Shown here: positions 3,355 through 24,604 of the stretch, piece after piece
How positions within the stretch are numbered: the first letter of the stretch is position 1
Layout: each line of letters opens with the position of its first letter
NCBI GenBank assembly: GCA_002393895.1
Contig: DGUE01000093.1
Location: 13,282-45,347, forward strand
Direction of reading: 5' to 3'
From: Bacteroidales bacterium UBA4318
GTDB lineage: Bacteria; Bacteroidota; Bacteroidia; Bacteroidales; UBA932
DNA length: 32,066 nucleotides
Position numbers and translations under genes: made by a program
The notes under the pieces: model-generated
The model's input: the letters and a program-made list of their open reading frames with translations, nothing else
Told to the model about the DNA's origin: nothing
Databases searched by the model: none

Positions 3355-3389
3355 ACCCGTCGAGGTTTTCCGGCGAAACCTCTACAGGT
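3355..3389 (+). repeat. REP-like 35-bp unit A (single copy)
   Basis: This unit runs from ACCCGTCGAGGTTTT to AAACCTCTACAGGT, an imperfect palindrome with mismatches at stem positions 4 and 9 from the outer CTA. It belongs to the same family as arrays B, C and D and has the same orientation as B. It is the only solitary unit in the window. An extra CT/AG pair flanks it on both sides. Confidence 0.8.
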
Positions 3390-3433
3390 AGCCTTAAGTC
3401 TCAAGCCGCCCTCCTAAAACCCAAAGAAGAAAC

Positions 3434-4291
3434 CTAGAACCGGACGCCGGCGCTGAGTGAGAAGCTGCCGCCGAGCACATCGGAGGCGAATAGGTAGGCG
3501 GCATCCAGGGTGAAGTCCCCGAGATGGGCGCCGAGGCCTACGGACGCGAAGGAAGGAATGATGCTGTCGCCACCGTAATGATATCCCGCACGCGCGAAGA
3601 CCATGCCGTCGTAGCCGTATTCAACACCCAGGCCGGCGGCAAGAGGGCCGGAAAAATACCTGTCCGCCTTAACCCTCGCAGTCAGGCCGTGCACATCGGC
3701 CAGAACTGTAGAATATCCGGCACCCAGGCTGATGGCAGAAGGCAGGGAGTACTCTCCTGAAGACTTGGACTTTACCTTCTTTCCCAAGGCGGAAACCCCC
3801 GCCGCGAACTCGAAACCGGACAATTTGCCCGCCGCAAACACGTCGAATGCGACAGAACTGTTGGAATATGAGGCCAGAATCTGCTCCTTTCCGTATTTAA
3901 CATTGGCTCCGAGCGCCAGAAAATCGGTAAGCGCAACCCCTATGCCCGCATTGACCATTATCTCCGAAGGCACGAACTTCTCTCCGCTTATCGCCTCTCC
4001 CGTGCCCCTTGTGAAAGCTATGCTCGCGCTGAAGCTGTCGAAGGTGCCGGCAGCACCGCCGCTGATGTATTTCGTGGAGCTAAGCTTCGGCATATAACTC
4101 TCGTAAGCTACCCCTCCGGCGAGCCTGATGCCGCTCAGGGGCAGCACGGCCGCGCTGGGAATCTTGCTGCTACCCATAGCGATAGACGCCGGATTGAAGT
4201 CCATCTGGATGAAGGGAAGAGCCTCGGAAGTCTGGGCCCCGGCCGAAAGCGAAAGAAGGCCGGCCGCCAGGATGATGAATATCTTTCTCAT
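3434..4291 (-). CDS. PorV/PorQ-like outer membrane beta-barrel protein
   Basis: The 285-residue protein has a cleavable signal peptide (MRKIFIILAAGLLSLSAGAQ) and a barrel-like pattern of alternating hydrophobic and Gly-rich strands ending in a terminal Phe (GVRF), typical of BAM-inserted barrels. The early FIQMDFNPASIAMGSS resembles the start of the mature PorV/PorQ family, known from type IX secretion and shuttling of cargo to the sortase. Its ATG overlaps the stop of the preceding subtilisin-like gene by 4 bases (ATGA). That gene encodes a C-terminal domain resembling a type IX sorting signal, so a dedicated handling or anchoring role is plausible but inferred. It is shorter than canonical PorV. 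Confidence 0.8.
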   Translation of the reverse strand: MRKIFIILAAGLLSLSAGAQTSEALPFIQMDFNPASIAMGSSKIPSAAVLPLSGIRLAGGVAYESYMPKLSSTKYISGGAAGTFDSFSASIAFTRGTGEAISGEKFVPSEIMVNAGIGVALTDFLALGANVKYGKEQILASYSNSSVAFDVFAAGKLSGFEFAAGVSALGKKVKSKSSGEYSLPSAISLGAGYSTVLADVHGLTARVKADRYFSGPLAAGLGVEYGYDGMVFARAGYHYGGDSIIPSFASVGLGAHLGDFTLDAAYLFASDVLGGSFSLSAGVRF

Positions 4292-6801
4292 ACTTTCACG
4301 ATATTATTGTGGAAGGTTTTGCCACTGTAGCTGATGGTAATGGAATAGCGCCCCGGCGCGAGCCCCGAGAAATCAACCACCAGCGGGTCGAATCCGCTGA
4401 AGACCTGGGTCTGCTCATACACCACCTTCCCGCTGGAGCTGACAATCCTCACGTATGTCTCGGCCGGCTCTTCGGTGCGTATGGTGAGGTCTGTCGTGAC
4501 CGGCATGGGCATCAGCTCGGCGGGATTGTTGGGATCCGGCTTCACCAGCACGCGGACCACGCAGATTGAGGATTTGTCCCCGTCGGATGCGGTGATGATG
4601 ATTTGCGCGTTTCCGCCCGCGATGGCCTTGATCCTGAGGGTTGAGGCATCGTACGAAATGTTGATGATCTTGCCGTTGTTGTTCCTGCAGACAAAGGTTA
4701 GAGGGTCGCCATCCGGGTCCTTGAACAGGGCACTCAGGGAGATGTTTTTACCGCTCCCGGAGCCGTAGAGCAGCACTCCGTCGACGGGAGAGACAAGCAC
4801 CGGCGCATTGTTGTCCGGGGTGGTGATGCTCTTCACCTCGGATGCCTCGGAGAAGTTCTTGTAAAGGTCGCTCGCGTAGAGCTTTACATAATATGTAGTG
4901 GAGTAGCTGTGCTCCCCGAGGGTGCCTCTGAGAGTGGCTCCCGCCTCAAGGTCGCCTACCGGGAAGAACTCGAACGAGACCTTGTCGGAGATGGAAGCGG
5001 GGGCGCTGGATTGCACTGCGGACTTGTCGGTGCCGTAGATGCAGAGAATCCTGGCCGGCTTGCCATCATCCTGGTCTGCAGGCACCTTGATGCTGATATT
5101 GATGGTCTTGCGGACGGCCTCCAGGCTGAACTCGCCAACCTTGTCCGGAGCGATGTTGGACGTAGGGATTCCCATCTGGAAAGACGCATCCAGGTCCACC
5201 CAGGGGCCTATGTACTTGCTGTTGTCGATATGGCTTTTGTCTGCCCCGTCCATCAGCAGGGCCTTGCAATCGTCGTTGGTAAAGCCGGCCCCTCCGAAAT
5301 AAGAAACCAGGAGCGCCAGGGCGCCGCTCACGTGCGGGCACGCCATCGACGTGCCGGACATGTAGCCGTAGGATGTATAGTCGTAGTTCTGCTTGTCGTA
5401 CTCGGTGACTAACTGGGTGGCGTAGAGATTGAACAACTGCCCCCGGCTGTATCTGTAGGCACCCAGGTCGTCGTAGAATGTCTGGGAATCGCAATCAGTC
5501 ACATAGCCATCGTAGAGACTGTCCCCGCCAGGGGCGCAGATATCGACCCAGGATCCGTAGTTCGAGTAACTGGCCTTGGTATATCCGGCCGTGCCTGCTC
5601 CCACGGCAATCACCTCGTCGTAGTCGCAGATAGGATCGTAGTCTATCCCTTCATTCCCGGCAGCAAACACCACCAGGCCACCCTTCATCGGGGAATCGGA
5701 CCTCTGGTTGTAGGGTGGCTGGCTTTCGCATCCCGCCATGAGGATGAAGTAGTCGATAGCTGCTTTTATGTAGCTCGGAATGCTTGTTTTCTTGTATGCG
5801 GCAAGTTCTTTGGCGCTTACCATCCCGTTTTGATCTGTGTCTGCGGAGAATCCCCAGCTGTTCTGGCTGATGACGGCGCCGTGGTCCGCGCCCCATTTGA
5901 TGGCGCTCGCGGTGGCATCGTCCGAGGATCCGTCCTCCCCATCGAAGATCTGGCTGCTGAGTATGCGTACGCCGGTAATGCCCTTGGCATAATCTCCCCC
6001 TGCTATGCCGGCCACGCCTATCCCGTTGTTCCGGATGGCGGCAATCGTGCCGGCAACATGCGTTCCGTGTGAATCGGGAGTGATGACGAAACTCCCTTTC
6101 GCGAAGTTCCTGCTTCCGTCCGCGCCTCCGGGGATGACTATTCCGGCAAGGTCCGGATGGTTGAGGTCAACGCCGCCGTCCACTACGTTCACGATAACCT
6201 TGCTGCTGCCGGTGCTGAAATTCTCCCACACTCCCATCAGGTTCATGTCCGCCCCCTCGTTGTTGTACTTTTCTATACCGTACATGGCGTTGCTCTTGAT
6301 GCATCCGATATTCAGGGAAAGGTCGTTGTAGAGGTCCCACTGCCACTTGAAATAGGGGTCATCCGGAATCGCGCTCCTGCGGTTTACCTTGTGCGGCATC
6401 TCCACTTTGCCCACACCGTCTATCGCGCCCAGCACCTCTCCTGCCTTGGTGGGGGAGATGCTTTCGTCGTATTCAATGCGGTAGAACCTGTGCAGTCCGG
6501 CATCCCGGGTGCGCTGCTCGTATTCGCCCGCATAGGGAAACACGCGGGAGAAGGATTTTATCCCGATGGCCCGCAGGGCCTCGTTTACATCTTCCGATTT
6601 GGTCTTGACGCTCCCGTCCCCGGCCCCCTCCAGCAGCTCGAGCAGGGAATCATCCACCTGCACGACCGCAACCCCGGCCACCGCAGTTGAGGGGTTCTCG
6701 GCCGGCACTTCAGATGAGTTTTTCACAGTCAGCCGCGACTCATCCCGCGTGCAGCCGATGGCCGCCGCGGCAAAAAGCACGGCAATCAACAATCTTTTCA
6801 T
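4288..6801 (-). CDS. subtilisin-like (S8) lipoprotein protease with type IX-like sorting domain
   Basis: The start is set at 6801 because MKRLLIAVLFAAAAIGC is a lipoprotein signal (Cys17) and because this ATG overlaps the upstream stop as ATGA. The protein has 837 residues. An inhibitor-like prodomain (about 40-140) precedes the S8 domain, whose triad is Asp208 (VVDGG), His245 (DSHGTHVAG) and Ser485 (SGTSMACPH), with oxyanion Asn383 (AAGNEG). Residues 321-332 (DTDQNGMVSAKE) match an EF-hand calcium loop inside the protease domain. Then come a fibronectin-like part and a cadherin-like part (DPDGDPLTF, ASDGD). The last about 75 residues (NPVTTDLTIR to GRYSITISYSGK) look like a type A sorting domain. 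A lipobox together with a sorting domain is unusual. Confidence 0.93.
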   Translation of the reverse strand: MKRLLIAVLFAAAAIGCTRDESRLTVKNSSEVPAENPSTAVAGVAVVQVDDSLLELLEGAGDGSVKTKSEDVNEALRAIGIKSFSRVFPYAGEYEQRTRDAGLHRFYRIEYDESISPTKAGEVLGAIDGVGKVEMPHKVNRRSAIPDDPYFKWQWDLYNDLSLNIGCIKSNAMYGIEKYNNEGADMNLMGVWENFSTGSSKVIVNVVDGGVDLNHPDLAGIVIPGGADGSRNFAKGSFVITPDSHGTHVAGTIAAIRNNGIGVAGIAGGDYAKGITGVRILSSQIFDGEDGSSDDATASAIKWGADHGAVISQNSWGFSADTDQNGMVSAKELAAYKKTSIPSYIKAAIDYFILMAGCESQPPYNQRSDSPMKGGLVVFAAGNEGIDYDPICDYDEVIAVGAGTAGYTKASYSNYGSWVDICAPGGDSLYDGYVTDCDSQTFYDDLGAYRYSRGQLFNLYATQLVTEYDKQNYDYTSYGYMSGTSMACPHVSGALALLVSYFGGAGFTNDDCKALLMDGADKSHIDNSKYIGPWVDLDASFQMGIPTSNIAPDKVGEFSLEAVRKTINISIKVPADQDDGKPARILCIYGTDKSAVQSSAPASISDKVSFEFFPVGDLEAGATLRGTLGEHSYSTTYYVKLYASDLYKNFSEASEVKSITTPDNNAPVLVSPVDGVLLYGSGSGKNISLSALFKDPDGDPLTFVCRNNNGKIINISYDASTLRIKAIAGGNAQIIITASDGDKSSICVVRVLVKPDPNNPAELMPMPVTTDLTIRTEEPAETYVRIVSSSGKVVYEQTQVFSGFDPLVVDFSGLAPGRYSITISYSGKTFHNNIVKV

Positions 6802-7490
6802 ATCACGCGTTTTACTTCCCAATGCCCGCCTTTGTCGGGCCCCACGCGCAGAAGCCTGCCGGTCTTCTTCAGGTTGGCAAGATGCTTTTCTACTCCCTTG
6901 TCGGAGATATGGAGGATGCCGGCCAGGTCGGCAGTTGTGTATCGGGGATGCTTTGAGAGTATGTCCAGGATGCGTTCGGCGTTGTTCTGGGTGCCCCTCG
7001 CGGGCCTGGACCCGCTCGGCTCCAGACCGAATTCAAACTCCAGCATATTACCAAGCAGACGCCCCATTACTATGTTCCCTTCCGGCCAGAGGGCTGCGCC
7101 GGAAACCTTGCTCCTGATGCTCTCCGCTGCCTTCCGCAAACCATCTGCTCCCAAGGATCTGGCGTGCATGCGGGCCTCGTTCGCCTCGTGGCAGATGGCC
7201 TGCAGCGTTGCCTCGTCGGAAACCTTGTTGCAGTCGAAACCCCTGCATTTCAAAGCCCTGGCAGCGAGCGACTTAAGCCTGTATCCGCTCCAAACCTGGT
7301 GCCCCTCGGCATCTTTGATAGCCATCTGGTATGCCTTGAACAGGTCGATGTTCTTAAGCTGTTCGAGGATGGTTTTGCCTTCGCTGCTGATGCCGTCTTC
7401 CAGCAGCCGGATGTTCTGCGAGAGATTGAGGGTTGAGCCTTCCAGGATGGTGGAATTGGTCACCAGAATATATAGAGTCTGCTTGTCCAT
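6798..7490 (-). CDS. degenerate Fic-like protein with C-terminal winged helix
   Basis: The N-terminus (MDKQTLYILVTNSTILEGS, ending LLEDGI) resembles Bacteroides Fic proteins. It contains the Fic inhibitory motif SxxxEG at Ser13-Glu17-Gly18. Where active Fic enzymes have HPFxDGNGRxxR, this one has ALWPEGNIVMGRLL (133-146): the catalytic His is Ala and GNGR is GNIV, while WPEGN and the later Arg-Leu-Leu survive. The part between is shortened. Residues about 168-230 form a winged helix (TTADLAGILHISDKGVEKHL, then RVGPDKGGHWEV), as in many Fic proteins. AMP transfer is therefore unlikely; a DNA-binding regulator is more likely. It leads an operon with the protease and barrel genes through an ATGA overlap. 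Confidence 0.8.
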   Translation of the reverse strand: MDKQTLYILVTNSTILEGSTLNLSQNIRLLEDGISSEGKTILEQLKNIDLFKAYQMAIKDAEGHQVWSGYRLKSLAARALKCRGFDCNKVSDEATLQAICHEANEARMHARSLGADGLRKAAESIRSKVSGAALWPEGNIVMGRLLGNMLEFEFGLEPSGSRPARGTQNNAERILDILSKHPRYTTADLAGILHISDKGVEKHLANLKKTGRLLRVGPDKGGHWEVKRVI

Positions 7491-7497
7491 AGGATTA

Positions 7498-7518
7498 CAA
7501 ATATAATGATTATCTTTG
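7498..7518. promoter_or_regulatory. 21-bp back-to-back promoter module
   Basis: CAAATATA (minus-strand box TATATTTG) and TATCTTTG (plus-strand box) are separated by ATGAT. The left box ends 7 bases before the Fic-like ATG at 7490. The right box faces pepP. The whole 21 bases are the exact reverse complement of 16127-16147. Each -33 region would fall in the other gene's start. Confidence 0.6.
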
Positions 7519-9753: not shown

Positions 9754-9760
9754 TTTTTTT

Positions 9761-9799
9761 GCCCCCTCCTGCCGTGCGCATCAGGGGGCTTATTGTTTT
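9761..9799 (+). terminator. terminator after fabG
   Basis: GCCCCCT (9761-9767) pairs with AGGGGGC (9783-9789) across a 15-base loop, followed by TTATTGTTTT. A run of seven T precedes it. It sits just 5 bases before the kinase ATG at 9804, so it may attenuate rather than fully separate that gene. Confidence 0.6.
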
Positions 9800-9803
9800 G
9801 ATT

Positions 9804-10643
9804 ATGAAGATAATAGTCGAGAGCGGCGCTACCAAGAGCGACTGGCGGGTCCTGGGCCCGGACGGCCGCGAGTTGAAGCGTTTCCTGAGTGCGGGCATCA
9901 ACGTGTCGAGCATGAAGATGGAAGATATCAAGGCAACGCTGGCGGAGGCCATCTCCTCAGAGGGCCTTGCCGGTGCGTCCGGCCTGTATCTCTATACCGC
10001 CGGGGTGGTTACGCCTGAGATTGCTGCCGAGCTTACCGGGTTTTTGCGCGGGGTTTCCGCCATTGGGGAGATCGATATCCAGGACGACCTGATGGGTGCT
10101 GCCAGGGGGGTGTGCGGGCATGAGCCCGGAATCGTTGCCATCCTTGGAACAGGCTCCAACACGTGCTTTTACGACGGGGCGACCGTTGAGCGAAAGGTGT
10201 ACTCGGGGGGATATGTGATTGGCGACGAGGGTAGCGGTTCGGCTCTTGGGAAGCTTTTCTTGTCGGACTTTATCAAGGGCCTGGTTCCGGAGGATCTGGC
10301 TGCAGATTTTTCCAGAGAGTTCGATTCTTCGTATGCGGGTATTGTAGAAGGCGTTTACCGCAGCGCTTCGCCTTCGTGCTACCTTGGTAGTATTGCCCCG
10401 TTCGTGGTCGGGCACTATTCGCATCCATATGCCAAGGAGTTGATAGAGAGGAATTTCCAGGCTTTTATCGAGCGCTCACTATTGCGTTACGACGTGGCGG
10501 CCTACCCTGTTGGCATCGTTGGCGGTTTCGCCTTTGCCTGCCGGTATATCCTGACGCCCCTTTTCGCCGCCGCCGGCATCCGCGCCTCCCGCTTTATCAA
10601 AGCCCCGATCGACGGCCTCTGCGAATACCACTCCGCCCGCTAG
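9804..10643 (+). CDS. BadF/BadG-type ATPase, N-acetylglucosamine kinase-like
   Basis: This is an ASKHA-fold sugar kinase. The start at 9804 (MKIIVESGATKSDW) gives the usual phosphate-1 motif at the N-terminus; an upstream in-frame ATG would cross the terminator hairpin. The protein is 279 residues. The second phosphate motif ILGTGSNTCFYDG, the ATP-binding GDEGSGSALG and the C-terminal VGIVGGFAF are visible. Bacteroidetes members of this type are annotated as GlcNAc kinases that feed amino sugars into metabolism or cell-wall recycling; the exact substrate is inferred. Followed by a repeat-rich gap. Confidence 0.85.
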   Translation: MKIIVESGATKSDWRVLGPDGRELKRFLSAGINVSSMKMEDIKATLAEAISSEGLAGASGLYLYTAGVVTPEIAAELTGFLRGVSAIGEIDIQDDLMGAARGVCGHEPGIVAILGTGSNTCFYDGATVERKVYSGGYVIGDEGSGSALGKLFLSDFIKGLVPEDLAADFSREFDSSYAGIVEGVYRSASPSCYLGSIAPFVVGHYSHPYAKELIERNFQAFIERSLLRYDVAAYPVGIVGGFAFACRYILTPLFAAAGIRASRFIKAPIDGLCEYHSAR

Positions 10644-10667
10644 CCCCTGCCAGGCGGCCTCTGCCCT

Positions 10668-10706
10668 GTGGTTTTGCTGGGTGGTTTTGCTGGGCGGTTT
10701 TGCCCT
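10668..10706 (+). repeat. 13-bp tandem repeat, then GCCCTG-rich tract
   Basis: Two exact copies of GTGGTTTTGCTGG (10668-10693) and a third degenerate copy (10694-10706) lie between the kinase stop and array B. Over 10661-10766 the word GCCCTG also recurs about six times in variable spacing. No gene is supported in this tract, though an open frame runs through it. Confidence 0.6.
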
Positions 10707-10793
10707 GTTCGCTGGCCCTGACGGGTGCCTTCTAGCCCTGTTCGATAGCCCTGCTGGACGCCCTGTCCCAGCCTGGCACCCTCTTTTCGCCCC

Positions 10794-10932
10794 ACCCGTC
10801 GAGCTTTTCCCGCAAAACCTCTACAGGTCGTCCGTTTTTTGCCCTACCTGTCGAGAAAAACCTACAAAACCTCTACTGGTCGGCCTTTTTTTGCCCTACC
10901 CGTCGAGAAAAACTTGCAAAACCTCTACGGGT
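10794..10932 (+). repeat. REP-like array B: three 35-bp palindromic units, 52-bp period
   Basis: Units at 10794-10828, 10846-10880 and 10898-10932 each run from ACCYGTCGAG to CTCTACNGGT. The two 17-bp spacers are alike and both end in TTTTTTGCCCT. The starts are exactly 52 bases apart. The third unit has fully paired outer arms ACCCGT/ACGGGT. The array ends 159 bases before the transposase ATG, and no -7 consensus is evident between them. Confidence 0.85.
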
Positions 10933-11091
10933 CAGCGGGTTACATATAAAAATTTAAGTTTAGGCAAATCAAAAAATAAATCTTATACCCATTTAAAAAC
11001 ACGCAATCGTCAGCAGAAACATATAATAAAGCAATTGTTTGCCGCAATAATTTGGAAGCCTCCGAAAACCCCGCCAACTTGCAAACAAAAA

Positions 11092-11964
11092 ATGCGAATC
11101 TATTTAAACTGCTGTAGTAAAGGTCTTGAAACGGACATCCTGTTCAAATCTCCTATTGAATTCATTGCCGGAATCAACCGGATTGCGGTCTGTATTCTAT
11201 TATGTCTGGCAAAAGGCATGACAGTCAGCGTAATCTCCTTCTGCCTGATGGACAATCATTTCCACCTTTTGCTGTATGGTGAGGAGGAGCACTGCATACA
11301 GTTCCTCAATCTCTATAAAAAGCTGACCCTGATGTGGATAGCCACCCATCGCGGAGCTCCTCTGAATGGCGAAATTGTTTTGGGCCATTGGCCCGTCGCC
11401 CGGGATAAAGTCCATGAAAAGGTGGTATATTATCACCGAAACCCGTACGTGGCCGGACTTAAAACCCTGCCGTATTACTACAAGTGGTCATCGGCCGGGC
11501 TGCTCTTCGCCGACAGGAAAGAACAGATGAAGGGCCTGACCAAAGCCTCGGACTTATCCGCCGAATGCAAAAGAAGATATATGTACAGCCGCGTTGAAGT
11601 ACCTGATAATTGGTATTTTACAGAGGATGGCATGGTCTGGCCGGGCAGCTTTATCGACATCGATTTCCTGGAGAGGCTGTTTCAAGGTCCGGGTTCCTAT
11701 ATGTTCGAAATGAACAACAGCAATATCGACAAGGAATGCGAAAGGGAGATGCTGATGGACAGTATGATGCTGCCTGACGGGGATGTTCTGGATGCGGCAG
11801 CGAAATATGCCAAACAGATGTTCGACAAAGGCGGAATCGAGAGTTGCAGCAAGGGAGAAAGAATCAGCATAGGAATGCTTTTACGCAAAGATCTGGGATG
11901 CAATCATAAGCAGTTGGCTCGAGTGTTGAAACTGTCGCCTTCGGACCTGAAGTTGATGGTATGA
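11092..11964 (+). CDS. REP-associated tyrosine transposase (RAYT, Y1/IS200-like family)
   Basis: Y1 transposases are HUH endonucleases that nick single-stranded hairpins; RAYTs are single-copy relatives linked to REP repeats. The start is placed at 11092 because the open frame upstream runs through the repeats; this gives 290 residues. HUH is His56-Phe-His58 in FCLMDNHFHLLLYG. The catalytic Tyr is likely Tyr113 in VVYYHRNPYVAGL, followed by the family's KWSS. A C-terminal region (about 250-290, RKDLGCNHKQLARVLKLSPSD) looks like a helix-turn-helix. No terminal inverted repeats of its own are seen. The stop overlaps comF by 4 bases (ATGA), an odd coupling for a transposase. Confidence 0.88.
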   Translation: MRIYLNCCSKGLETDILFKSPIEFIAGINRIAVCILLCLAKGMTVSVISFCLMDNHFHLLLYGEEEHCIQFLNLYKKLTLMWIATHRGAPLNGEIVLGHWPVARDKVHEKVVYYHRNPYVAGLKTLPYYYKWSSAGLLFADRKEQMKGLTKASDLSAECKRRYMYSRVEVPDNWYFTEDGMVWPGSFIDIDFLERLFQGPGSYMFEMNNSNIDKECEREMLMDSMMLPDGDVLDAAAKYAKQMFDKGGIESCSKGERISIGMLLRKDLGCNHKQLARVLKLSPSDLKLMV

Positions 11965-12773
11965 TCTGGAAGGTGATAGCCGACCTGCTGATGCCGAGGA
12001 CGTGCCTGGCGTGCGGGGCGGAACTGGGCCCGGAGGAGGAACATCTCTGCGAAGCCTGCCTGAAGGACCTGCCGCAGACGCGCTACTGGAAGTTGAGGGA
12101 GAACCCTATGGCCGAGAGTTTCAACGCGCTGATACAGAGGAATATGGGTGATGATGTGCAGTACCAGCCCTACAGCTACGCGGCGGCCCTTTATTTCTAC
12201 AAGGGAGGATACCGGGAGATCAGCAAGGCCCTGAAATATCGGCGGAATTTTGCAGCTGGCAGGTGTTTCGGGCGGCTGTTGGGGAAGACGTTGGCAGAGA
12301 CGGAATTTTTCCGGGATGTAGATCTGGTGGTGCCCATCCCCCTTCATTGGACCCGGCGCTGGCAGCGCGGATACAACCAGGCGGCAGTCATCGCCCGGGA
12401 GGTGGCGGCCTGTCTGGGATGCCCCTGCGACACGAGGCTGCTGAAGCGCACCCGGCATACCCGGACCCAGACCCATCTGAATGCAGAAGGCCGCGCCGCA
12501 AATGTGGCCGGCGCGTTCCGGGTGAACGCACGTAACTGGCGCAGGCTCGTCACGCGGGAACCACCATCTCTGCACCGCCAGCCCTCTTCGTGCCAGCCGA
12601 CCTCTCCCCACCATTATTTATTAATAGACGACGTTTTCACTACCGGCGCGACCGCTTCCGCCTGCGAACGGGCAATCAGGGAGGCCCTGCGGACTGCAAC
12701 CCCCGGCCGGAATTCCAATAATGCCCGCCAAATCAGGATTTCGATCGCCACATTGGCGTGCGTGGAGCGCTGA
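11961..12773 (+). CDS. comF: ComF family phosphoribosyltransferase-like protein
   Basis: ComF proteins act in natural transformation, probably at ssDNA import, in competent bacteria. The 270-residue product has the N-terminal zinc ribbon (Cys15, Cys18, Cys30, Cys33), the central VVPIPLHWTRRWQRGYNQA segment, the RTQTHLNAEGRAANVAGAF motif and the PRPP loop LLIDDVFTTGATA. About 25 residues rich in Ser, Pro, Arg and His (RREP-like, near 195-215) are inserted just before the PRPP strand, longer than usual. It overlaps the RAYT stop and is likely translated by coupling. It converges on the barrel gene, leaving an 8-base gap. Confidence 0.9.
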   Translation: MIWKVIADLLMPRTCLACGAELGPEEEHLCEACLKDLPQTRYWKLRENPMAESFNALIQRNMGDDVQYQPYSYAAALYFYKGGYREISKALKYRRNFAAGRCFGRLLGKTLAETEFFRDVDLVVPIPLHWTRRWQRGYNQAAVIAREVAACLGCPCDTRLLKRTRHTRTQTHLNAEGRAANVAGAFRVNARNWRRLVTREPPSLHRQPSSCQPTSPHHYLLIDDVFTTGATASACERAIREALRTATPGRNSNNARQIRISIATLACVER

Positions 12774-12781
12774 CGTTTGCC

Positions 12782-13285
12782 TTAGAATGATTTTCCGAAA
12801 GAGAATCCTATCTGATGGCCTTTGTAGGGAACTGTCACTCCTCCATCCAGGTTGCCGGCGCCACCAAGGAACCAGTAATTGACCTTGAAGAAGAATTTGT
12901 GGATGTTGACACCTACTGACGGATTAATGAAATAGCAAATGTCATTATGTTCTGAAATGGTAAGCTCCAAGCCGGTGCGCGCAGAGACAAACGGGCTGAG
13001 ATCACTCTTGAAGAAAACATATTTTGCTTCGAGGAAAAGAGGGAAGGATACACCTTCGCTATGAAGTAACTTCTCAAGGCCGGTACCGATTCCGATAAAT
13101 GATCCATCTCCGTAAGAAATACCGTGTACCGTCAGAATATCAAACTCTCCACCACCGGCACTTTGCTTTCCAATATTGGCACGCCCTCCTACCTCGAGCC
13201 CACCTGAATATCCTTGTTTAAAACCCGACTGTGCTGAAGCCAAAACTGAAAACAGAAAAAATACAATAGTCAGAAACTTTTTCAT
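12782..13285 (-). CDS. small outer membrane beta-barrel-like protein, function unknown
   Basis: The protein is 167 residues with a clear signal peptide (MKKFLTIVFFLFSVLASAQ). The mature part alternates Gly-rich and aromatic strands and ends SFGKSF with a terminal Phe, consistent with an eight-stranded barrel. No enzymatic motif is seen. It is transcribed away from the DUF456 gene. The product is recognised only by type, not by family. Confidence 0.75.
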   Translation of the reverse strand: MKKFLTIVFFLFSVLASAQSGFKQGYSGGLEVGGRANIGKQSAGGGEFDILTVHGISYGDGSFIGIGTGLEKLLHSEGVSFPLFLEAKYVFFKSDLSPFVSARTGLELTISEHNDICYFINPSVGVNIHKFFFKVNYWFLGGAGNLDGGVTVPYKGHQIGFSFGKSF

Positions 13286-13312
13286 AGTTTAACCGTTATT
13301 TGAAATGGGCGG

Positions 13313-13320
13313 CAAAAGTA
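13313..13320 (-). promoter_or_regulatory. promoter of the small barrel gene
   Basis: On the minus strand TTTTTG, 20 bases, then TACTTTTG fits the -33/-7 pair of Bacteroidetes. The leader is about 25 bases. This is the best two-part match in the window. Confidence 0.6.
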
Positions 13321-13349
13321 CTCAATTTTCAAAACAAAAGCAAAAACCT

Positions 13350-13357
13350 TATATTTG
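13350..13357 (+). promoter_or_regulatory. -7 box of the DUF456 gene
   Basis: TATATTTG ends 7 bases before the ATG at 13365, so the leader would be a few bases at most. It overlaps the -33 area of the divergent barrel promoter. Confidence 0.55.
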
Positions 13358-13364
13358 CAGAACT

Positions 13365-13850
13365 ATGACATCACTCGAGATTTTTGCAATCATCTGCGGG
13401 GTGCTGGGCATCATCGGCAGTATAGTTCCCGGGCTTCCCGGGCCGCCACTCAGTTGGGTGGGGCTTATGCTTGTATTCTTTGCCGGGAACCGCGGCGAAT
13501 GTGAACCTATTTCTACCACGTTCCTGCTGGTCTGGCTCGGCATCACTACCGTGGTAACCATACTCGATTACGTGATTCCAGGGTGGTTTGCAAAGAGCAC
13601 AGGAGGCCACAAAGAAGCCTCCTGGGGTGCTATAATCGGGCTATTCGCCGGAATGTTCCTTACGCCGATCGGCATGCTGGCGGGTGCACTGCTGGGTGCC
13701 TTTATCGGGGAATTCTATTTCGCGCAGCAGGATGCCATGCATTCTGTCAAGGCGTCGCTCGGCGCCTTCCTCGGTTTTATCTTCAGCACCGGAATGAAGC
13801 TGATTGCCGCCGGCATAATGGCATTCTACATTTTCAAGGCGATAATCTAG
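13365..13850 (+). CDS. DUF456 family membrane protein
   Basis: The start at 13365 follows a -7 box; the longer frame from 13305 would cover the promoter. The 161-residue protein is almost entirely hydrophobic. It opens with a first helix FAIICGVLGIIGSIVPGLPG, followed by PPLSWVG, typical of DUF456. Later Gly-rich helices (AIIGLFAGMFLTPIGMLAGALLGA in two parts, then ASLGAFLGFIFSTGMKLI) give about four to five membrane segments. It is an inner membrane protein of unknown role. Array C follows 14 bases after its stop. Confidence 0.85.
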   Translation: MTSLEIFAIICGVLGIIGSIVPGLPGPPLSWVGLMLVFFAGNRGECEPISTTFLLVWLGITTVVTILDYVIPGWFAKSTGGHKEASWGAIIGLFAGMFLTPIGMLAGALLGAFIGEFYFAQQDAMHSVKASLGAFLGFIFSTGMKLIAAGIMAFYIFKAII

Positions 13851-13864
13851 CCTTTTCTTCTCAG

Positions 13865-14003
13865 ACCCGTAGAGCTTTTCGGCCTAATTCTTTACAAGTA
13901 GGCCGAAAAATGGGCGACCTGTAGAGGTTTTACCGGGTTTCCTTGACGAGTAGAGCAAAAAACGGCTGACCTGTAGAGGTTTTGCGGGAAAAGCTCGACG
14001 GGA
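13865..14003 (-). repeat. REP-like array C: three units, 52-bp period, inverted relative to B
   Basis: Units at 13865-13899, 13917-13951 and 13969-14003 start exactly 52 bases apart. The reverse complement of the second spacer, CAGCCGTTTTTTGCTCT, closely matches the array B spacers. The array therefore has the same design in the opposite direction. The right arms of these units are the most degenerate of the family. With B it frames a 3.2-kb segment that holds the RAYT gene. The rest of the gap (14004-14061) shows nothing clear. Confidence 0.8.
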
Positions 14004-14061
14004 GGGACGGAATGCAAGTGGAGAGCTGCGGATAGAGCGGCCAGGCTGGGTGGTGGGGGGA

Positions 14062-18546: not shown

Positions 18547-19397
18547 CAGTTGAAATTCCTTGAGGCAAACGGCAGCGACAGACGCAGGGCCAGATGCCAG
18601 TATTCCCAGTTATGCACGCCGTTGCGCACGCGGAGTTCGCTGTGCACTCCGGCCTTCTTCATCTTCATGTGCAGACCGTAATTCAGGTGCAGCAGGAAGT
18701 CGTCGTCGCCGCAGTCGATGAACCAGGCGACCGTGCGGAGCTTCTCCAGGGTGGCCTTGTCTGCGTTATCCACGAAATCGAGGGCTGAATACTGCTTGAC
18801 CGCCTCGCGCACATAATAGAGTTTATCGATGGTATCCACGCTGCGCTTCAGCTCATCCTCTTTGTTATCCAGCCAGGCGCTCATCGCGTAGCAGCTGGAG
18901 AACATGTCGGGATGCCTCTGGGAATAGACCACGCTGCCACCTCCTCCCATCGAGAGGCCCATCACGGCGCGCTGCTCCTTGCTGCCGCCGCAGGAGTACT
19001 TCTTCTCGAGCGTGGGCACCAACTCCTGAAAGAAGAAATCCTCGTAGTTCCATCCCGGCATGTTGAAGTAGCCGTTCCAGGTGTTGTGCACATCCGGGCC
19101 GCCGGCGTTGGGCATGATGATGACCATGGGAACGATCTCGCCGGAGCGGGTCAGTTCGTCGACAACCGTCTGCATGTTGCCCCTCTTCACCCATGCGGTG
19201 TAGTTGTCGCTGAGGCCATGCAGGAGGTACACCACGGGGTAGTGGCGTTCCGCCTTGCCGTAGCCATCCGGCAGATAGACGTTATACTTCACGTTGACTC
19301 CCAGCACGCGGCTGGAGAGACTGTCGGTTACCACCTTTCCCGCGCGAAGGGGCAGGAAGGCGAGCGCCAGCAGGATGATTAAGGCTAACTTTTTCAT
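18546..19397 (-). CDS. secreted alpha/beta-hydrolase esterase (esterase D/CE1-like)
   Basis: The 283-residue protein has a signal peptide (MKKLALIILLALAFLPLRAG) and the esterase D fold. HGLSDNYTAW is the oxyanion region (60-69). Ser149 in GLSMGGGG is the nucleophile, Asp231/232 in DCGDDDF the acid and His262 in GVHNWEYW the base. Relatives deacylate sugars or act on feruloyl or S-formylglutathione-type esters. The secreted form and a downstream fucosidase suggest glycan O-deacylation. Its ATG overlaps the stop of the upstream desulfidase-like gene (ATGA). Confidence 0.9.
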   Translation of the reverse strand: MKKLALIILLALAFLPLRAGKVVTDSLSSRVLGVNVKYNVYLPDGYGKAERHYPVVYLLHGLSDNYTAWVKRGNMQTVVDELTRSGEIVPMVIIMPNAGGPDVHNTWNGYFNMPGWNYEDFFFQELVPTLEKKYSCGGSKEQRAVMGLSMGGGGSVVYSQRHPDMFSSCYAMSAWLDNKEDELKRSVDTIDKLYYVREAVKQYSALDFVDNADKATLEKLRTVAWFIDCGDDDFLLHLNYGLHMKMKKAGVHSELRVRNGVHNWEYWHLALRLSLPFASRNFN

Positions 19398-20734
19398 TTG
19401 CAGAGCATTATGTCCAGGATCATGTGGTCCGCGGCCTTCATGCCGGCGGATCCTATGGCCCCGAGGTTACGTATTGTTTTTTCTATATCGTCGTCGATGA
19501 TGCCGTCGGTGGAGGGGATGCAGGTGCCGCGCATGGCTAGCACTGCCGACTGCACGGCGCAGGACACTCCGGAGGCCACTTTCATGGCGCAGCCCACCTT
19601 GGCCCCGTCGCACACCATGCCGGTGATGTTGCCTGTCATGTTCTTGATGGCCGCGCAGACCTGCTCGTATCCGCCTCCCTGCATCCAGACTATGCCGCAG
19701 GCAGACCCGGTGGAAGCTACCACGCAGCCGCAGAGGGCCGAAAGCTTGCCGAGGTAGCTCTTGATGTGGATGGCCACCAGATTGCTCAGGATCAGCGCTC
19801 GCGCAAGGCGTTCGTCATCCACCTTGTAGCGCATGGCATAGGCGATTACGGGCATGCTGACCGTGATTCCCTGGTTGCCGCTGCCGCTGTTGCTCATTGC
19901 GGGGAGGGTGGATCCTGCCATGCGGGCGTCCGACGCGGCTGCGGTCATGCCCATGGCATACGACATGAAATCGTCCCCGAACACCTCCGCCTGGTTCTCG
20001 CGTATGGCCTTGCCCACCTTGAGGCCGTAATCCCCCCTGAGGCCCTCCTGGGCCAGGGCGAGGTTGAGGCGGCGGTCGTCCAGGATGAAGGCAATCTTCT
20101 CGTAGGGCACGCTCTGTGCGAATTCCAGGATCTCGCGTATGGTGAGGCCGTCGTCATCTGCGGCGCGCTCCACGGCGGCCGCTCCGGATTCGGAACTCAT
20201 GAGGATGCGGTCCGCGAAGCTGGTTTCCACTATGCGGTCGTGGTCATCTTCGATTACCGCGTAGGCATGAGGATCCACCTCAGCGCTGGCCTCGGCCCTG
20301 CCGTCCACCGATACCGTGGCCTTTACGTAGAGGAGTCGCTCGGTAGGCGCTACGCTGATGTGTACCCGCCCGCCGGCTACGAGCTCCTTGGCGCGGGCCA
20401 CGGCCGCTTTGTCCAGACTTGCAAGGACCTCGAGCCCGCGGGCAGAATCTCCGCAGACGGCCCCCAGGGCCGCCGCCACGGGCAATCCCACCATCCCGGT
20501 GCCGGGAATGCCTACTCCCATCCCGTTCTTGAGTATGTTTCCGCTGACGGCAACGTCGATGCTGAAAGCAGCGCCAAGCCTCCACCCTTCGGGGCAGATG
20601 CATGGGCAGTTGTCGGTGATTATTTCCACTGCCTTGGCAACGGCAAGAGCCACTGCAATGGGCTCAGTGCAGCCCAGGGCGGGCTTCACCTCGCGGTGGA
20701 TTATATCAATGATTTCGTCCTGACGGTCTTTCAT
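19394..20734 (-). CDS. L-cysteine desulfidase family protein (CyuA/UPF0597)
   Basis: Family members break cysteine down to pyruvate, ammonia and sulfide with an iron-sulfur cluster. Reading from MKDRQDEIID at 20734 gives 446 residues; a longer frame would start inside the promoter. Candidate cluster Cys residues include Cys22 (PALGCTEP) and those of LSALCGCVVASTGSACGI. The central MSNSGSGNQGI motif is also typical. E. coli relatives are cyuA (yhaM). It is cytoplasmic, yet it leads an operon of secreted esterase and fucosidase; the link is unclear, perhaps use of cysteine from host mucin. The activity is inferred from family. Confidence 0.88.
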   Translation of the reverse strand: MKDRQDEIIDIIHREVKPALGCTEPIAVALAVAKAVEIITDNCPCICPEGWRLGAAFSIDVAVSGNILKNGMGVGIPGTGMVGLPVAAALGAVCGDSARGLEVLASLDKAAVARAKELVAGGRVHISVAPTERLLYVKATVSVDGRAEASAEVDPHAYAVIEDDHDRIVETSFADRILMSSESGAAAVERAADDDGLTIREILEFAQSVPYEKIAFILDDRRLNLALAQEGLRGDYGLKVGKAIRENQAEVFGDDFMSYAMGMTAAASDARMAGSTLPAMSNSGSGNQGITVSMPVIAYAMRYKVDDERLARALILSNLVAIHIKSYLGKLSALCGCVVASTGSACGIVWMQGGGYEQVCAAIKNMTGNITGMVCDGAKVGCAMKVASGVSCAVQSAVLAMRGTCIPSTDGIIDDDIEKTIRNLGAIGSAGMKAADHMILDIMLCK

Positions 20735-20739
20735 ATTAA

Positions 20740-20759
20740 CAAAGATAATCATAACTTTG
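20740..20759. promoter_or_regulatory. 20-bp back-to-back promoter module (third copy)
   Basis: CAAAGATA, ATCA, TAACTTTG. The left box ends 5 bases before the ATG at 20734. The right box gives the GH125 gene a leader of about 30 bases. It is one base shorter in the middle than the other two modules. Confidence 0.6.
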
Positions 20760-20792
20760 TAGAAACGAAGTTTTTATACTAAAGATTCTGCG

Positions 20793-22178
20793 ATGAAAAG
20801 AATCCTGACCACCCTGGCTCTGTGCCTGTTTCTCTGCCAGTGCGGAAGGGCGCAGGAGTTTGTATCCTGCCGGCCCGCGCCCGAGGACCGCTGCTTCCGC
20901 TCGGAGGCAGTGGAACGCACTATCGATGAAGTCTGCGCAAAACTTGGCCCCGGAAAGCTTGCCTGGATGTTCGCCAACTGCTTCCCCAACACCCTCGACA
21001 CTACAGTGGAATACGACGAGGCCGCGGGCGACACCTTCGTAATCACCGGCGACATACATGCCATGTGGCTCCGGGATTCGGGTGCACAGGTCTGGCCCTA
21101 TCTACGCCTGGCCGGCGGGGATGAGCATCTGCGAAAGATGATTGCGGGCGTGCTGATGCGCCAGCTCCGCTGCCTTGCGCTGGACCCGTATGCGAACGCG
21201 TTCAACAAGGGCCCGACCGGCAGCGAGTGGGAAAGCGACCATACAGAGATGACCCCCTGGCTGCACGAACGCAAGTGGGAGCTGGATTCCCCCTGCTACG
21301 TGCTGCGCCTGGCCTACGGCTATTGGAAGGCCACCGGAGACACATCCGTCTTCGGAAAAGAGTGGATGGAGGCGGTGAAGGCTGTGCTGCGGACTTTCCG
21401 CGAGCAGCAGCGCTACGACGGCCACGGCCCCTACCGTTTCGCGCGACGTACCGAGAGGGCATTCGACACCAAAGGATGGGACGGCCGCGGTGCCCCAGTG
21501 AAGCCCTGCGGGCTGATAGCATCCTCCTTCCGCCCCTCGGACGATGCCACGGTGCTGGAGTTTCTGGTGCCATCCAACTTCTTCGCTGTCAGCGCATTGC
21601 GTTGGGCGGCGGAGATCCTTTCAAAGGTGGATTGCGGTTCGAAGCGCGAGTGCCGGAAAATGGCTGAGGAGTGCCTGTCGCTGGCTTCGCAGGTGTCCGC
21701 TGCGCTTGAGCAGTATGCCGTGGTGGAGCATCCCAAGTACGGCCGCATCTACGCCTACGAGGTGGACGCCTTCGGAGGGCATATGCTGATGGACGATGCC
21801 AACGTGCCCAATCTGCTGTCGCTGCCCTATCTGGGCTGTGTGCCGGCAGATGACCCGGTGTGGCAGAATACCCGCCGCTTCGTGCTGAGCGCAGATAACC
21901 CCTGCTTCTTCAAAGGTTCCGCCGGTGCCGGAGTGGGCGGTCCCCATGTCGGCCTCGGCTGGATCTGGCCCATGAGCATCATCATGCAGGCCCTGACCTC
22001 TTCTGACGAGGCCGAAATCGCCTCCTGCCTCCAGACTTTGATGGCCACCGACGCCGGCACAGGCTTCATGCACGAAGCCTTCTGGAAGGATGACGCATCC
22101 CGCTACACCCGCAGTTGGTTCGCCTGGGCCAATACCCTCTTCGGCGAACTCGTGCTGGAGATATATTTAAGAGGCTGA
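20793..22178 (+). CDS. GH125 exo-alpha-1,6-mannosidase
   Basis: GH125 enzymes are metal-independent inverting mannosidases acting on alpha-1,6-mannose of host or fungal glycans. The 461-residue protein starts with a signal peptide (MKRILTTLALCLFLCQCGRAQ; Cys residues within it also make a lipobox possible). Family segments are visible: ITGDIHAMWLRDSGAQVWPY, DGRGAPVKPCGLIASSFRPSDD, HMLMDDANVPNLLSLPYLG and the end MHEAFWKDDASRYTRSWFAW. It is divergent from the desulfidase-esterase-fucosidase operon and has its own terminator. Confidence 0.93.
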   Translation: MKRILTTLALCLFLCQCGRAQEFVSCRPAPEDRCFRSEAVERTIDEVCAKLGPGKLAWMFANCFPNTLDTTVEYDEAAGDTFVITGDIHAMWLRDSGAQVWPYLRLAGGDEHLRKMIAGVLMRQLRCLALDPYANAFNKGPTGSEWESDHTEMTPWLHERKWELDSPCYVLRLAYGYWKATGDTSVFGKEWMEAVKAVLRTFREQQRYDGHGPYRFARRTERAFDTKGWDGRGAPVKPCGLIASSFRPSDDATVLEFLVPSNFFAVSALRWAAEILSKVDCGSKRECRKMAEECLSLASQVSAALEQYAVVEHPKYGRIYAYEVDAFGGHMLMDDANVPNLLSLPYLGCVPADDPVWQNTRRFVLSADNPCFFKGSAGAGVGGPHVGLGWIWPMSIIMQALTSSDEAEIASCLQTLMATDAGTGFMHEAFWKDDASRYTRSWFAWANTLFGELVLEIYLRG

Positions 22179-22213
22179 CAAGGATTTGCTCCAGATGGAC
22201 ACTTAATATATAG

Positions 22214-22241
22214 CACAAGCCCTCTGGCTAGGGGGCTTGTG
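22214..22241 (+). terminator. terminator after GH125 gene
   Basis: CACAAGCCCTCT, loop GGCT, AGGGGGCTTGTG: a 12-bp stem with one G-T pair followed by TATTTATT. It is placed 35 bases after the GH125 stop and can also close the convergent ATPase gene. Confidence 0.8.
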
Positions 22242-22268
22242 TATTTATTACAGGGAGGTAGAACTATT

Positions 22269-23861
22269 CTAGAAGCAAAGCGACTTACTTACTTCGCTGG
22301 ACTGGAAGGCATTGAAACTGTCAATTATATTCTGCACTTCTTCCGCTCCGTAGTAATTCACATTCTGCTTGGCGATCTCTTCACATGAGATTATTTGAGC
22401 CATGGTGAACTTGAGGTCGTTATCAAGTCTGCAGTAAAACTTTTGGAAAAAGGGATGATCGGTATTGATAACAATAATTCTTTTCCCGTTGGTCCTTTCC
22501 ATTCCGTACATTTCAGCCGTTCTTCCTAAAGGCCTTTCCTCAAATCCGTCGAGCCACTTATTGGTGCGCGTTTTTACTGGGTTAGGATTCTGTTGAGGTC
22601 CACGTTTTTTATGCTCCTTATCATCTTCCTCCGGTTTCGGTTTATTGATACCCTTACGGTTGGCTTTCAGCATCATATTTTTATTTTGCTTCTCAGTCAC
22701 TCTACGATAAAACTCCTCTGTAGCCTTCTTTTCGGCGGGGTCATTTTCTTTCCTAGACTGCAAATCCTTTTTGTCTCTCTTGTTGGCCTCGGTTGCATAC
22801 GGGCCAATGTTTGCGGCTAATTTATCCCACAGGGATTGAGACATTGTGTCCTGAGCCTTTTCTCCAATCATTTTTGTGAAAGTGGAGCCGAAAAGATAAT
22901 CACAGGTGCCGTCAATAAAGATTTCGCATCTAAAACCGTTCTTCCAGTTGTCCTTTGACCACAGGCCAAGAACCAACCCCTTACCTACCAGACGGTTCTG
23001 TCTATAGATATAAAGGCCCTGATTGTTAAGGGTCCTGGCGGTATATTCGGTTCCATCTTTAGCGGTAAGGTGCTCGTTATTCTCCATATTGCTATCCATT
23101 CCGCCAATCTTTGGCATATACCAAGCCTTGTAGGAAATGGTATGGCCTTCAACATCAAAGCTACCTTCACCCATGAGATCATTTTCAATACTATTTCCCA
23201 TGAGGTCGGTATAGGGGACATCGTCTTTGCGGACGTAAAATTTCACCACATCAGCATATATGAACTTGTTGAAGTACTCGCCGATTTTGTTTTTAAGGGT
23301 GCCTCTGAAGTTCTGGTAATTTTTGTTAGATAATCTGTCTAATACGGAAATCTTGACGATTGTACCATGGTCTTTACCTACGATGCTCTTAAACCATTTG
23401 CATTCGTTAGAATTGTCAGGATAGGATGCACTGCTAACAAAAATCGACCCATGTTCTTGTATAGCGGATTCAAGAGAGATGATGGCATAGTTCAGAGAAT
23501 CATCCGCAGATTTCGTGAATACCTCCATCTTTTGTCCGATGGAGAAGGATGCGGTTTTCATACCGGCACCGTACATTCCAAGGTTGCTAGTGCCATTTTT
23601 TCCTGTTTCGGAACCGAGACTCATGGCCTCGTCAAGTACATCGGCAGTCATTCCATTACCGTCATCGATAATGAGAATGCTCTTAATAATTGTGTTTGCT
23701 GCTCCCGTCCCTTCCGTCTCAAAATCGACTTTTACATAAGAACTTCCCACTTCAGGTTCAAGGGAATTGTCGATGATGTCAGCGAGCGCTGAATAATTGT
23801 TGTAGCCACAATTACGAAGGGCGTTAACGATAAAAGAATCTTTTACCTTTAAATTAGTCAT
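22269..23861 (-). CDS. GHKL (HATPase_c_3/MORC-like) ATPase, orphan
   Basis: The ATG at 23861 (MTNLKVKDSF) is preferred: GGTGG lies 4-8 bases upstream, whereas the longer frame needs a TTG. In 530 residues the Bergerat fold shows the N box SALADIIDNSLE (24-35), G1 IIDDGNGM (64-71) and G2 NLGMYGAGMKTASFSIG (93-109), followed by an S5-like middle domain. A charged linker (KKDLQSRKENDPAEKK and on) precedes a C-terminal helical part. MutL, MORC, Hsp90 and topoisomerase VI share this ATPase; some relatives sit in defence islands. No partner gene is seen. The sequence is plainly more AT-rich than its neighbours, suggesting transfer. Confidence 0.85.
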   Translation of the reverse strand: MTNLKVKDSFIVNALRNCGYNNYSALADIIDNSLEPEVGSSYVKVDFETEGTGAANTIIKSILIIDDGNGMTADVLDEAMSLGSETGKNGTSNLGMYGAGMKTASFSIGQKMEVFTKSADDSLNYAIISLESAIQEHGSIFVSSASYPDNSNECKWFKSIVGKDHGTIVKISVLDRLSNKNYQNFRGTLKNKIGEYFNKFIYADVVKFYVRKDDVPYTDLMGNSIENDLMGEGSFDVEGHTISYKAWYMPKIGGMDSNMENNEHLTAKDGTEYTARTLNNQGLYIYRQNRLVGKGLVLGLWSKDNWKNGFRCEIFIDGTCDYLFGSTFTKMIGEKAQDTMSQSLWDKLAANIGPYATEANKRDKKDLQSRKENDPAEKKATEEFYRRVTEKQNKNMMLKANRKGINKPKPEEDDKEHKKRGPQQNPNPVKTRTNKWLDGFEERPLGRTAEMYGMERTNGKRIIVINTDHPFFQKFYCRLDNDLKFTMAQIISCEEIAKQNVNYYGAEEVQNIIDSFNAFQSSEVSKSLCF

Positions 23862-23965
23862 ATGTCCACCTTCGCTACTTTGATAAAGGGCTTTCAAAAT
23901 GGCATTGCGAAGGATTTCAGTTTATCCATTCCAAAAGCACAAATTAATGTTGCATCGCAACGGTG

Positions 23966-23973
23966 CAAATATA
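23966..23973 (-). promoter_or_regulatory. -7 box of the GHKL ATPase gene
   Basis: Minus-strand TATATTTG gives a leader of about 100 bases. TTGCA and TGCAA arms (23952-23970) frame the likely start of transcription and could be an operator, but the arms are only 5 bases. Confidence 0.4.
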
Positions 23974-24003
23974 TGATTGTTTTTTGAAATAAAGAATAAA
24001 AAG

Positions 24004-24061
24004 TGGAGGCTTTCCCCTGTTTCAGTACGGCAGCAGACAATTCTGCTCTTCCGGGCCTCCA
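24004..24061. other. long-loop inverted repeat in the island gap
   Basis: TGGAGGC (24004-24010) and GCCTCCA (24055-24061) are perfect 7-base arms 44 bases apart. The 297-base gap 23862-24158 otherwise holds the ATPase leader and the Rpn terminator; no gene is seen. Confidence 0.35.
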
Positions 24062-24099
24062 TCTATCGGGAAGGACTCATGGAAAAGGAATTAAACTAA

Positions 24100-24123
24100 A
24101 AGGGAGCCGAATTCGGCCCCTTT
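24100..24123 (-). terminator. terminator of the Rpn remnant
   Basis: A hairpin AAGGGAGCCG, loop AATT, CGGCCCCTTT with one A-C mismatch and one G-T pair. On the minus strand it is followed by TTTAGTTTAATT. It lies 35 bases after the remnant's stop. Confidence 0.6.
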
Positions 24124-24158
24124 AAAGAATGTGTTGTATTGAATTGCACGAGTCCTTT

Positions 24159-24452
24159 CTATTGCTTAAGAATCTTCAGATCTTCTTCGCTTAAGCCTGT
24201 GACACGTAGAATTATCTCCATAGCAACGCCTTCGGACAGTAATTTTGCCGCAATTTCTCGGCTGGCTTCTTCCTTGTAGTATTCATAGTTAGCCTCGGCA
24301 ATGTCTGCGAGTTCTTCGTAGATACTGGACTTGAAATAAGCTTGTTTTTGCTCTTCAGTCATATTATTTAAACGCAAGGCATCCATGAGCTTGTGGAATC
24401 TAGGGTTGATATCTTCTGGCATACCGACAAATTTAGGAAAATTCCTGAACAT
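24159..24452 (-). pseudogene. C-terminal remnant of Rpn-family (PD-(D/E)XK) recombination-promoting nuclease
   Basis: Only 97 codons from the first ATG: MFRNFPKFVGMPEDINPRF through EEQKQAYFKSS to a tail EGVAMEIILRVTGLSEEDLKIL, which is the usual end of Rpn/transposase-like nucleases in Bacteroidetes. The catalytic N-terminal domain is absent. The frame stays open upstream into repeat array D, whose first unit begins 14 bases beyond the ATG, so the nuclease part was probably lost at the array. Whether the remnant is still translated is unknown; it retains a terminator. Confidence 0.7.
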
Positions 24453-24465
24453 AATACCACGGCAG

Positions 24466-24604
24466 ACCTGTAGAGCTTTTTGGCCTTTTTCTCTACAGGT
24501 AGGGCAAAAAATGGCTGACCCGTAGAGGTTTGGCCGGAAATCCTCGACGGGTAGGGGGTAAAAAGGGGGTACCTGTAGAGTTTTTGGCCAAATTCTCTAC
24601 AGGT
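24466..24604 (-). repeat. REP-like array D: three units, 52/53-bp period
   Basis: Units at 24466-24500, 24518-24552 and 24571-24604, in the same orientation as array C. The first and third have perfect outer arms ACCTGTAGAG/CTCTACAGGT; the second has ACCCGT/ACGGGT. The first spacer AGGGCAAAAAATGGCTG matches the others when reversed. It fills the gap between the Rpn remnant and the symporter and ends 25 bases before that gene's -7 box. Confidence 0.85.

Follow-up and report, generated by a model that had tools for sequence, protein, structure and literature searches.

REP-type palindromes with a likely cognate RAYT in a Bacteroidales genome, and arrays spaced by about whole helical turns in its genus

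The window analysed here is a stretch of 32,066 nucleotides from Bacteroidales bacterium UBA4318 (contig DGUE01000093.1). It contains ten short palindromes at four intergenic sites and a gene for a REP-associated tyrosine transposase (RAYT; REP, repetitive extragenic palindrome), which is likely their cognate transposase. The palindromes are probably REP-type elements of a RAYT (HUH Y1 transposase) system, lying in helically spaced arrays that the window RAYT would copy or move. Many related RAYTs of the genus have palindrome arrays of their own, in which successive units lie about a whole number of helical turns apart. An initial annotation of this DNA had already proposed a REP/RAYT system. 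That interpretation is right, and it is stronger than the annotation knew, because the likely cognate gene lies inside the window.

Palindromes, trimers and the RAYT gene

All ten units that the initial annotation listed between positions 3355 and 24604 were recovered in place (Table 1). Nine are 35 bp long and the last (24571-24604) is 34 bp; within clusters they start 52 bp apart, and once 53 bp. The proposed arms ACCYGTMGAG and CTCTACRGGT fit the ten places at 19-20 of 20 arm positions (two more places score 16), but several right arms deviate from the second motif (CTCTACTGGT, CTTTACAAGT, CTTGACGAGT, CTCGACGGGA and CTCGACGGGT). The window and its sister stretches together (221.6 kb) hold 84 places at 17-20 and 7 at 16, a density that is not genome-wide since the sister stretches were selected for holding units. 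In five shuffles of the same 221.6 kb no place reached 18-20, 0-3 places scored 17 and 8-11 scored 16, and the reversed sequence gave 1 at 17 and 14 at 16. A repeat search of the window groups the units and places sites B and C in a 149-nt inverted repeat, 79% complementary.

The RAYT gene is flanked by its own repeats, with array B 160 bp upstream and array C 1.9 kb downstream. The window protein has the RAYT fold. Its HUH motif and the catalytic tyrosine of the Y1 domain (N55, H56, H58 and Y113) are invariant among 14 paralogues. In the C-terminal part K273, Q274 and R277 are invariant in 9 aligned rows, and Q274 and R277 in 14. This part has no convincing match in Pfam and none by sequence in the PDB, and a search of NCBIfam with the whole RAYT open reading frame (ORF) gave no name for it. 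Among the genomes compared, G001 is the nearest relative of the window. It carries no near-identical second copy of the window RAYT (next best 43%). G001, G062 and G063 each encode a RAYT 88-91% identical to that of the window. Of 61 relatives, 1 contains the strict unit pattern, as do 2 of 6 genomes found by way of named RAYT loci; units and RAYT share their species range.

Forward matches to a fixed-length pattern with at most 3 mismatches number 36 in G001, 22 in G062 and 51 in G063, counts that come from incomplete genomes and miss 34-bp units; the reversed pattern gives 0. Instead of the hundreds of copies that the initial annotation asked for as support, there are tens per incomplete genome. 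The intergenic bias that it wanted checked is borne out: 48 of 142 units lie mostly inside ORFs (greedily chosen, at least 300 nt, a unit being counted if over half covered), against 6883 of 8000 random positions (86%). Some of the 48 sit in over-extended ORFs, and a few may lie in real genes. Such an over-extension occurs at the window RAYT, where the three units at 10794-10932 fall within the 5' part of ORF 10681-11964. They count as intergenic because the RAYT homology begins only at 11092, and all ten window units are intergenic as judged from the ORF list (no gene finder was used).

Most arrays are trimers. The 51 arrays of four genomes comprise 35 trimers, 7 dimers, 5 single units, 2 four-unit and 2 five-unit arrays, with orthologous arrays of different genomes counted separately and some arrays possibly cut by contig ends. 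In a smaller locus set, 27 of 40 arrays are trimers and the spacings are solely 52 bp (65 times) and 53 bp (8 times). Three dispersed trimers of G063 (C19:84055, C19:52363 and C23:40150) have mutually unrelated flanks over the 80 bp compared, and BLAST between arrays at different places gives many alignments of 140-142 nt, some longer. These flanks and lengths suggest that the 139-bp trimer, more than the 35-bp palindrome, is the dispersed and mobile unit. The exception among the five G063 trimers compared is the pair C4:881 and C12:140806, which have a similar right flank in common.

Comparison of orthologous places shows further variation. The place of site A holds one unit in the window and three in G063; in G001 it has a different right flank and holds no unit. 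G063 also has site D, which is missing from a rearranged G001 segment, and sites B and C occur in all four genomes compared. The B-C segment with the RAYT (window 10785-14012) is inverted in G063 (L109, G063:C20) relative to the outside genes, with breakpoints at the arrays. The few comparisons made gave no clean empty sites. By analogy with E. coli TnpAREP, the window RAYT would cut and paste these units. It would recognise the private 10-bp arms and copy or move arrays into intergenic sites, mostly as 139-bp trimers.

The initial annotation described covariation at stem position 4; this is correct for the six units that it named, but the four units that it omitted do not fit (T-T at 10846, C-A at 13865, T-G at 13917 and T-G at 13969). 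In the multi-genome alignment, pair 4/32 covaries (odds ratio 5.6, p 1.2e-4; in G063 alone odds ratio 12, p 7e-4). The set consists of 105 distinct 35-mers, without the 34-bp units, and the statistics ignore the relatedness of copies. The states are TA 37, CG 34, CA 23, TG 7 and others 4. All other pairs lack compensatory covariation. Pair 7/29 is paired in 38 of the 105 and mismatched in 67, with 62 changes on the left, 5 on the right and none on both sides. The arrays had been oriented according to which arm is degenerate. The left/right split of this one-arm mismatch is therefore built in, but the lack of double changes is not. The stem covariation is thus upheld at pair 4/32 only, and selection for a perfect hairpin is unsupported, since most copies are mismatched at 7/29 and none changed on both sides. 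DNA folding z-scores range from +0.4 to -5.6 for the ten window units, and 4 of these (|z| under 1) show no gain over shuffles. Trimers D, B and C score -6.2, -0.8 and -3.7.

Three candidate features were set aside. Pseudoknot pairing of loop and spacer, and pairing of the first loop of a trimer with the complementary third loop, were inconsistent across several copies compared by eye and were dropped. Phased A-tracts are visible by eye in the window family, are unclear at L153 and L125, and were not used.

Private arms and array spacing in the genus

The 61 genomes include 32 with RAYT homologues, every one of them from the same genus; there are up to 9 per genome and 148 matches in total. 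Paralogues in G001 have arrays with other arms, namely ACCTTCCCC/GGGGAAGGT with a spacing of 52 bp and GGCAGGA/TCCTGCC with one of 51 bp. The first of these patterns has 11 copies and is found in G001 alone among the 61 genomes (control 0). In G024 a further private pattern has 5 copies; it has 4 in G028 and one match in each of three other genomes, with single control matches in two genomes. Another has 7 copies in G034 and single matches in four others (control 0). Judged by these low numbers, private families are mostly small.

At least two same-arm palindromes within 600 bp are present at 43 of 93 RAYT loci and at 2 of 48 far stretches, and same-arm palindromes lie on both sides of the RAYT at 30 of these loci and at none of the far stretches. 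The arms follow the RAYT protein at close range. Arms are alike (at least 6 of 7 bases) in 7 of 8 pairs with at least 70% RAYT identity, 6 of these 8 pairs coming from one group of four orthologues, in 0 of 27 pairs at 50-70% and in 6 of 698 at 20-40%. Flanks are direct at 45 and inverted at 3 of 113 loci; the B/C pair of the window is inverted.

Several single loci belong beside these counts. At an orthologous site of the RAYT2 family, G001 has ACCTTCCCC/GGGGAAGGT and G063 has ACCTTCCTT/AAGGAAGGT. Compensatory arm switching in this family was considered and is weak, as G063 has just two copies of the exact variant, both at this site. Locus L010 (G001:C4:38454-38716) has the private repeat families of two different RAYTs side by side at one intergenic site. 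A RAYT fragment with stop codons at G001:C20:54098-54490 (L208, L238) is likely a relic. Long arrays of 74-bp period lie on both sides of one RAYT at L035 (G017:C4), outside the strict palindrome count, and L217 also has a long array.

The spacing was studied in two sets. In the first, 113 loci made up of 93 of the 148 RAYT matches and 20 further loci, 42 loci have two or more palindromes that share their arms and lie at distances of 35-130 bp (far control 2/48). The same function was applied to a held-out set of 40 weaker RAYT matches not used before, which brings coverage to 133 of the 148. Here 12 of 40 loci have such palindromes, against 0 of 26 in a far control whose downstream stretch is nearer than in the first set. 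Their spacings are 51, 51, 51, 52, 64, 71, 72, 72, 72, 73, 73 and 75 bp. Pooled, 54 of the 153 loci have spacings of 50-54 (39 loci), 63-64 (2), 71-75 (12) and 85 bp (1), with none in the gaps; four values of 100-104 bp were halved as double units. The 54 loci have 51 distinct arm 7-mers, a few being shifted windows of one arm. Fifty-one of the 54 spacings deviate by at most 1.6 bp from a multiple of 10.5, and with zero phase a period of 10.3-10.4 bp fits best. In the phase test p is 3e-5 for the 15 loci outside the main class and 0.004 for the 8 of these in the held-out set.

A looser count, in which self-offsets need not be palindromic, finds 59 of 93 near stretches and 1 of 48 far stretches, with 35 of the 59 at 50-53 bp. 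It alone includes the flanks of L028 and L127, with self-offsets of 84 and 86 bp, near eight helical turns. Within the window, an exact 7-mer test found no further phased arrays and itself recovers only site D.

Three points qualify the whole-turn spacing. On a quick RAYT tree with long branches the spacing class changes only 6 times, so that the phase p-values are too small and the effective sample is about six; the chance that six changes all fall within 1.6 bp of whole turns is about 0.305^6 = 8e-4. The looser count has other values as well, at 20-39, 54, 63, 66, 72-77, 84-86, 102, 105 and 125 bp, and in the held-out loci (21 of 40) the odd values 48 and 119. Lastly, the contrast outside the genus is small. 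Among 295 genomes of the order, full-length RAYT matches (E up to 1e-8) occur in this genus only (G001, G068), and the other matches cover at most about the first 170 positions. The order-wide set has 29 loci, 22 of them analysable and 11 with two or more hairpins. Their spacings are 52 (same genus), 47, 60 and 85, 98, 92, and 157/158 at longer distance. One locus from another genus of the same family has a 73-bp self-offset without such palindromes. Since the spacings 85 and 157/158 come close to whole turns as well, only 47, 60, 92 and 98 carry the contrast.

How the repeats may be read

Across the genus the design is probably the same, with different arms for different RAYTs and a distance between palindromes held near whole helical turns. 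The likely reason, though a less certain one, is that copies of the RAYT line up on one face of the double-stranded DNA through the DnaA-like C-terminal domain. There they might bring the ends of an array together before the strand is transferred, or regulate the promoter of the RAYT itself. It is put forward more tentatively that this RAYT class reads its repeats as double-stranded, helically phased half-site arrays via this domain, with arms that evolve per RAYT and a spacing locked near 5, 6, 7 or 8 turns. Such a REP system would have a nucleoprotein-array or synapsis step ahead of single-strand transposition.

DnaA-box and iteron arrays repeat a site of about 9-10 bp in phase with the helix. 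The arrays described here resemble them in their short phased sites and in a protein domain with a weak structural match to the DNA-binding domain of DnaA. In contrast, the sites here are palindromic pairs tied to a transposase, and a replication role is not indicated.

It may instead be, and this is a real possibility short of a probable one, that the RAYT reads its units solely as single-stranded hairpins, as in E. coli. The constant period would then be inherited from ancestral arrays, with unit copies expanding and contracting, and the double strand would have no role. The RAYT fold and the E. coli precedent (PMC8266576) agree with this, as do the one-sided mismatch, which resembles the bulge required in E. 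coli, the good folding of the site D units (z -2.6 to -5.6) and the inheritance of period class on the RAYT tree. Less easily accommodated is the period of the main class, which has a standard deviation of 0.8 despite palindromes of 23-47 bp and loops of 5-33 nt. Moreover, 9 of 12 seven-turn families are poor hairpins with 28-42 nt between exact 7-mers (13, 18 and 21 in the other three), and every one of the roughly six class changes ends near whole turns.

The arrays are unlikely to be passive sites of a host protein (a nucleoid protein, gyrase, terminator or mRNA stabiliser) that the RAYT merely distributed in the past. Their intergenic position would suit such sites, and host roles of REPs have been proposed elsewhere (PMC3733652), but a single host factor would not explain arms that differ among the RAYTs of one genome. 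Slippage of minisatellites beside a transposase gene, with chance palindromes, fits the varying array size (1-5 units in the window family, long arrays at L035 and L217) and is very improbable and largely refuted, as same-arm palindromes recur at both flanks and at dispersed sites and the far controls give 2/48 and 0/26.

Relation to known systems and neighbouring features

The REPtrons of Gammaproteobacteria (REP/RAYT or TnpAREP), including E. coli REP and Pseudomonas REPINs, likewise have an HUH Y1 transposase of RAYT fold, imperfect intergenic palindromes near the gene and dispersed, and RAYT-private repeat families. In contrast, the present RAYT has about 290 aa with a C-terminal domain, loops are often long, and the arrays are phased. 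The window family is a repeated intergenic palindrome within the 20-40 bp of a canonical REP. Its copies number tens per incomplete genome, and canonical REPs have more than 100 per genome. The GT[AG]G tetranucleotide at the stem foot is found in at least half the units of only 4 of 42 families (chance 0.08 per unit), and the GTAG of the window family is part of the arm itself. The replicating unit of REPINs is an inverted doublet; here 139-bp trimers prevail, with dimers making up 7 of the 51 arrays. IS200/IS605 TnpA differs in that the present protein is longer, has array flanks and lacks the near-identical second copy in G001.

The proposal that the family may be new is fair for its sequence, but a 2018 article described Bacteroidetes RAYTs with atypical secondary structures at their flanks (PMC6006769). 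These RAYTs belong to TnpAREP subclass 2.6, or Bertels group 5 (Quentin et al. 2018), and also have structures without GT[AG]G and copies elsewhere in the genome. The subclass is set apart by its described length of 179 aa, against 290 here, and the passages of that article covered here give no spacing rule or trimer for it. TIRYTs and their TIRtrons (subclass 2.1; Di Nocera 2013, PMC3733652; Quentin 2018) share gene-private repeats. Their C-terminal domain is DnaA-like or helix-turn-helix, and the C-terminal part here, with its weak structural match, may be of this kind. They have terminal inverted repeats around the gene, whereas direct palindrome arrays predominate across the present genus, the inverted B/C pair of the window notwithstanding. 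The 2018 survey reported no REP-like sequence beside subclass 2.1 (PMC6006769).

RAYT-private REPs, atypical structures at Bacteroidetes RAYTs and helix-turn-helix RAYTs flanked by terminal inverted repeats are thus already in print (PMC6006769, PMC3733652, PMC3116915). The titles and abstracts of the literature searched mention neither the 139-bp trimer nor a whole-turn spacing for Bacteroidetes RAYT repeats. One genus supplies dozens of RAYTs, each with visible candidate sites at a fixed spacing, which makes a specificity code and a helical-phase rule directly testable.

Table 1. Palindrome arrays, spacers and RAYT features of the window
Feature	Position	Strand	Description
Site A	3355..3389	+	single 35-bp unit
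Site B	10794..10932	+	trimer array: 10794-10828, 10846-10880, 10898-10932; period 52; upstream of RAYT
Spacer between units, site B	10829..10845	+	17 bp; belongs to repeated period; similar in other arrays
RAYT gene	11092..11964	+	290 aa; HUH motif N55-H56-x-H58; catalytic Y113 by homology
RAYT C-terminal part, residues 196-290	11677..11961	+	like the DnaA DNA-binding domain by weak structural match
Site C	13865..14003	-	trimer array: 13865-13899, 13917-13951, 13969-14003; period 52; inverted vs site B
Site D	24466..24604	-	139-bp trimer: 24466-24500, 24518-24552, 24571-24604
First spacer, site D	24501..24517	+	17 bp
Second spacer, site D	24553..24570	+	18 bp; 34-bp third unit keeps total at 139

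Other features of the window lie beside the arrays. A segment of about 1 kb (9759-10783) adjoins array B and is missing there in G001, G062 and G063. Its ORF 9759-10643, which we take to be kinase-like, has no match in a Pfam search. An ATPase-like ORF at 22269-23897 (minus strand) has a partial MzaB match of 87.9 bits against a cut-off of 850. The segment with this ORF is missing from G001, where 19390-22166 is inverted. The Rfam matches of the window are two tRNAs only. At 3128-3246, shortly before site A, a tRNA gene precedes a terminator-like inverted repeat of 29 bp that has a run of T.
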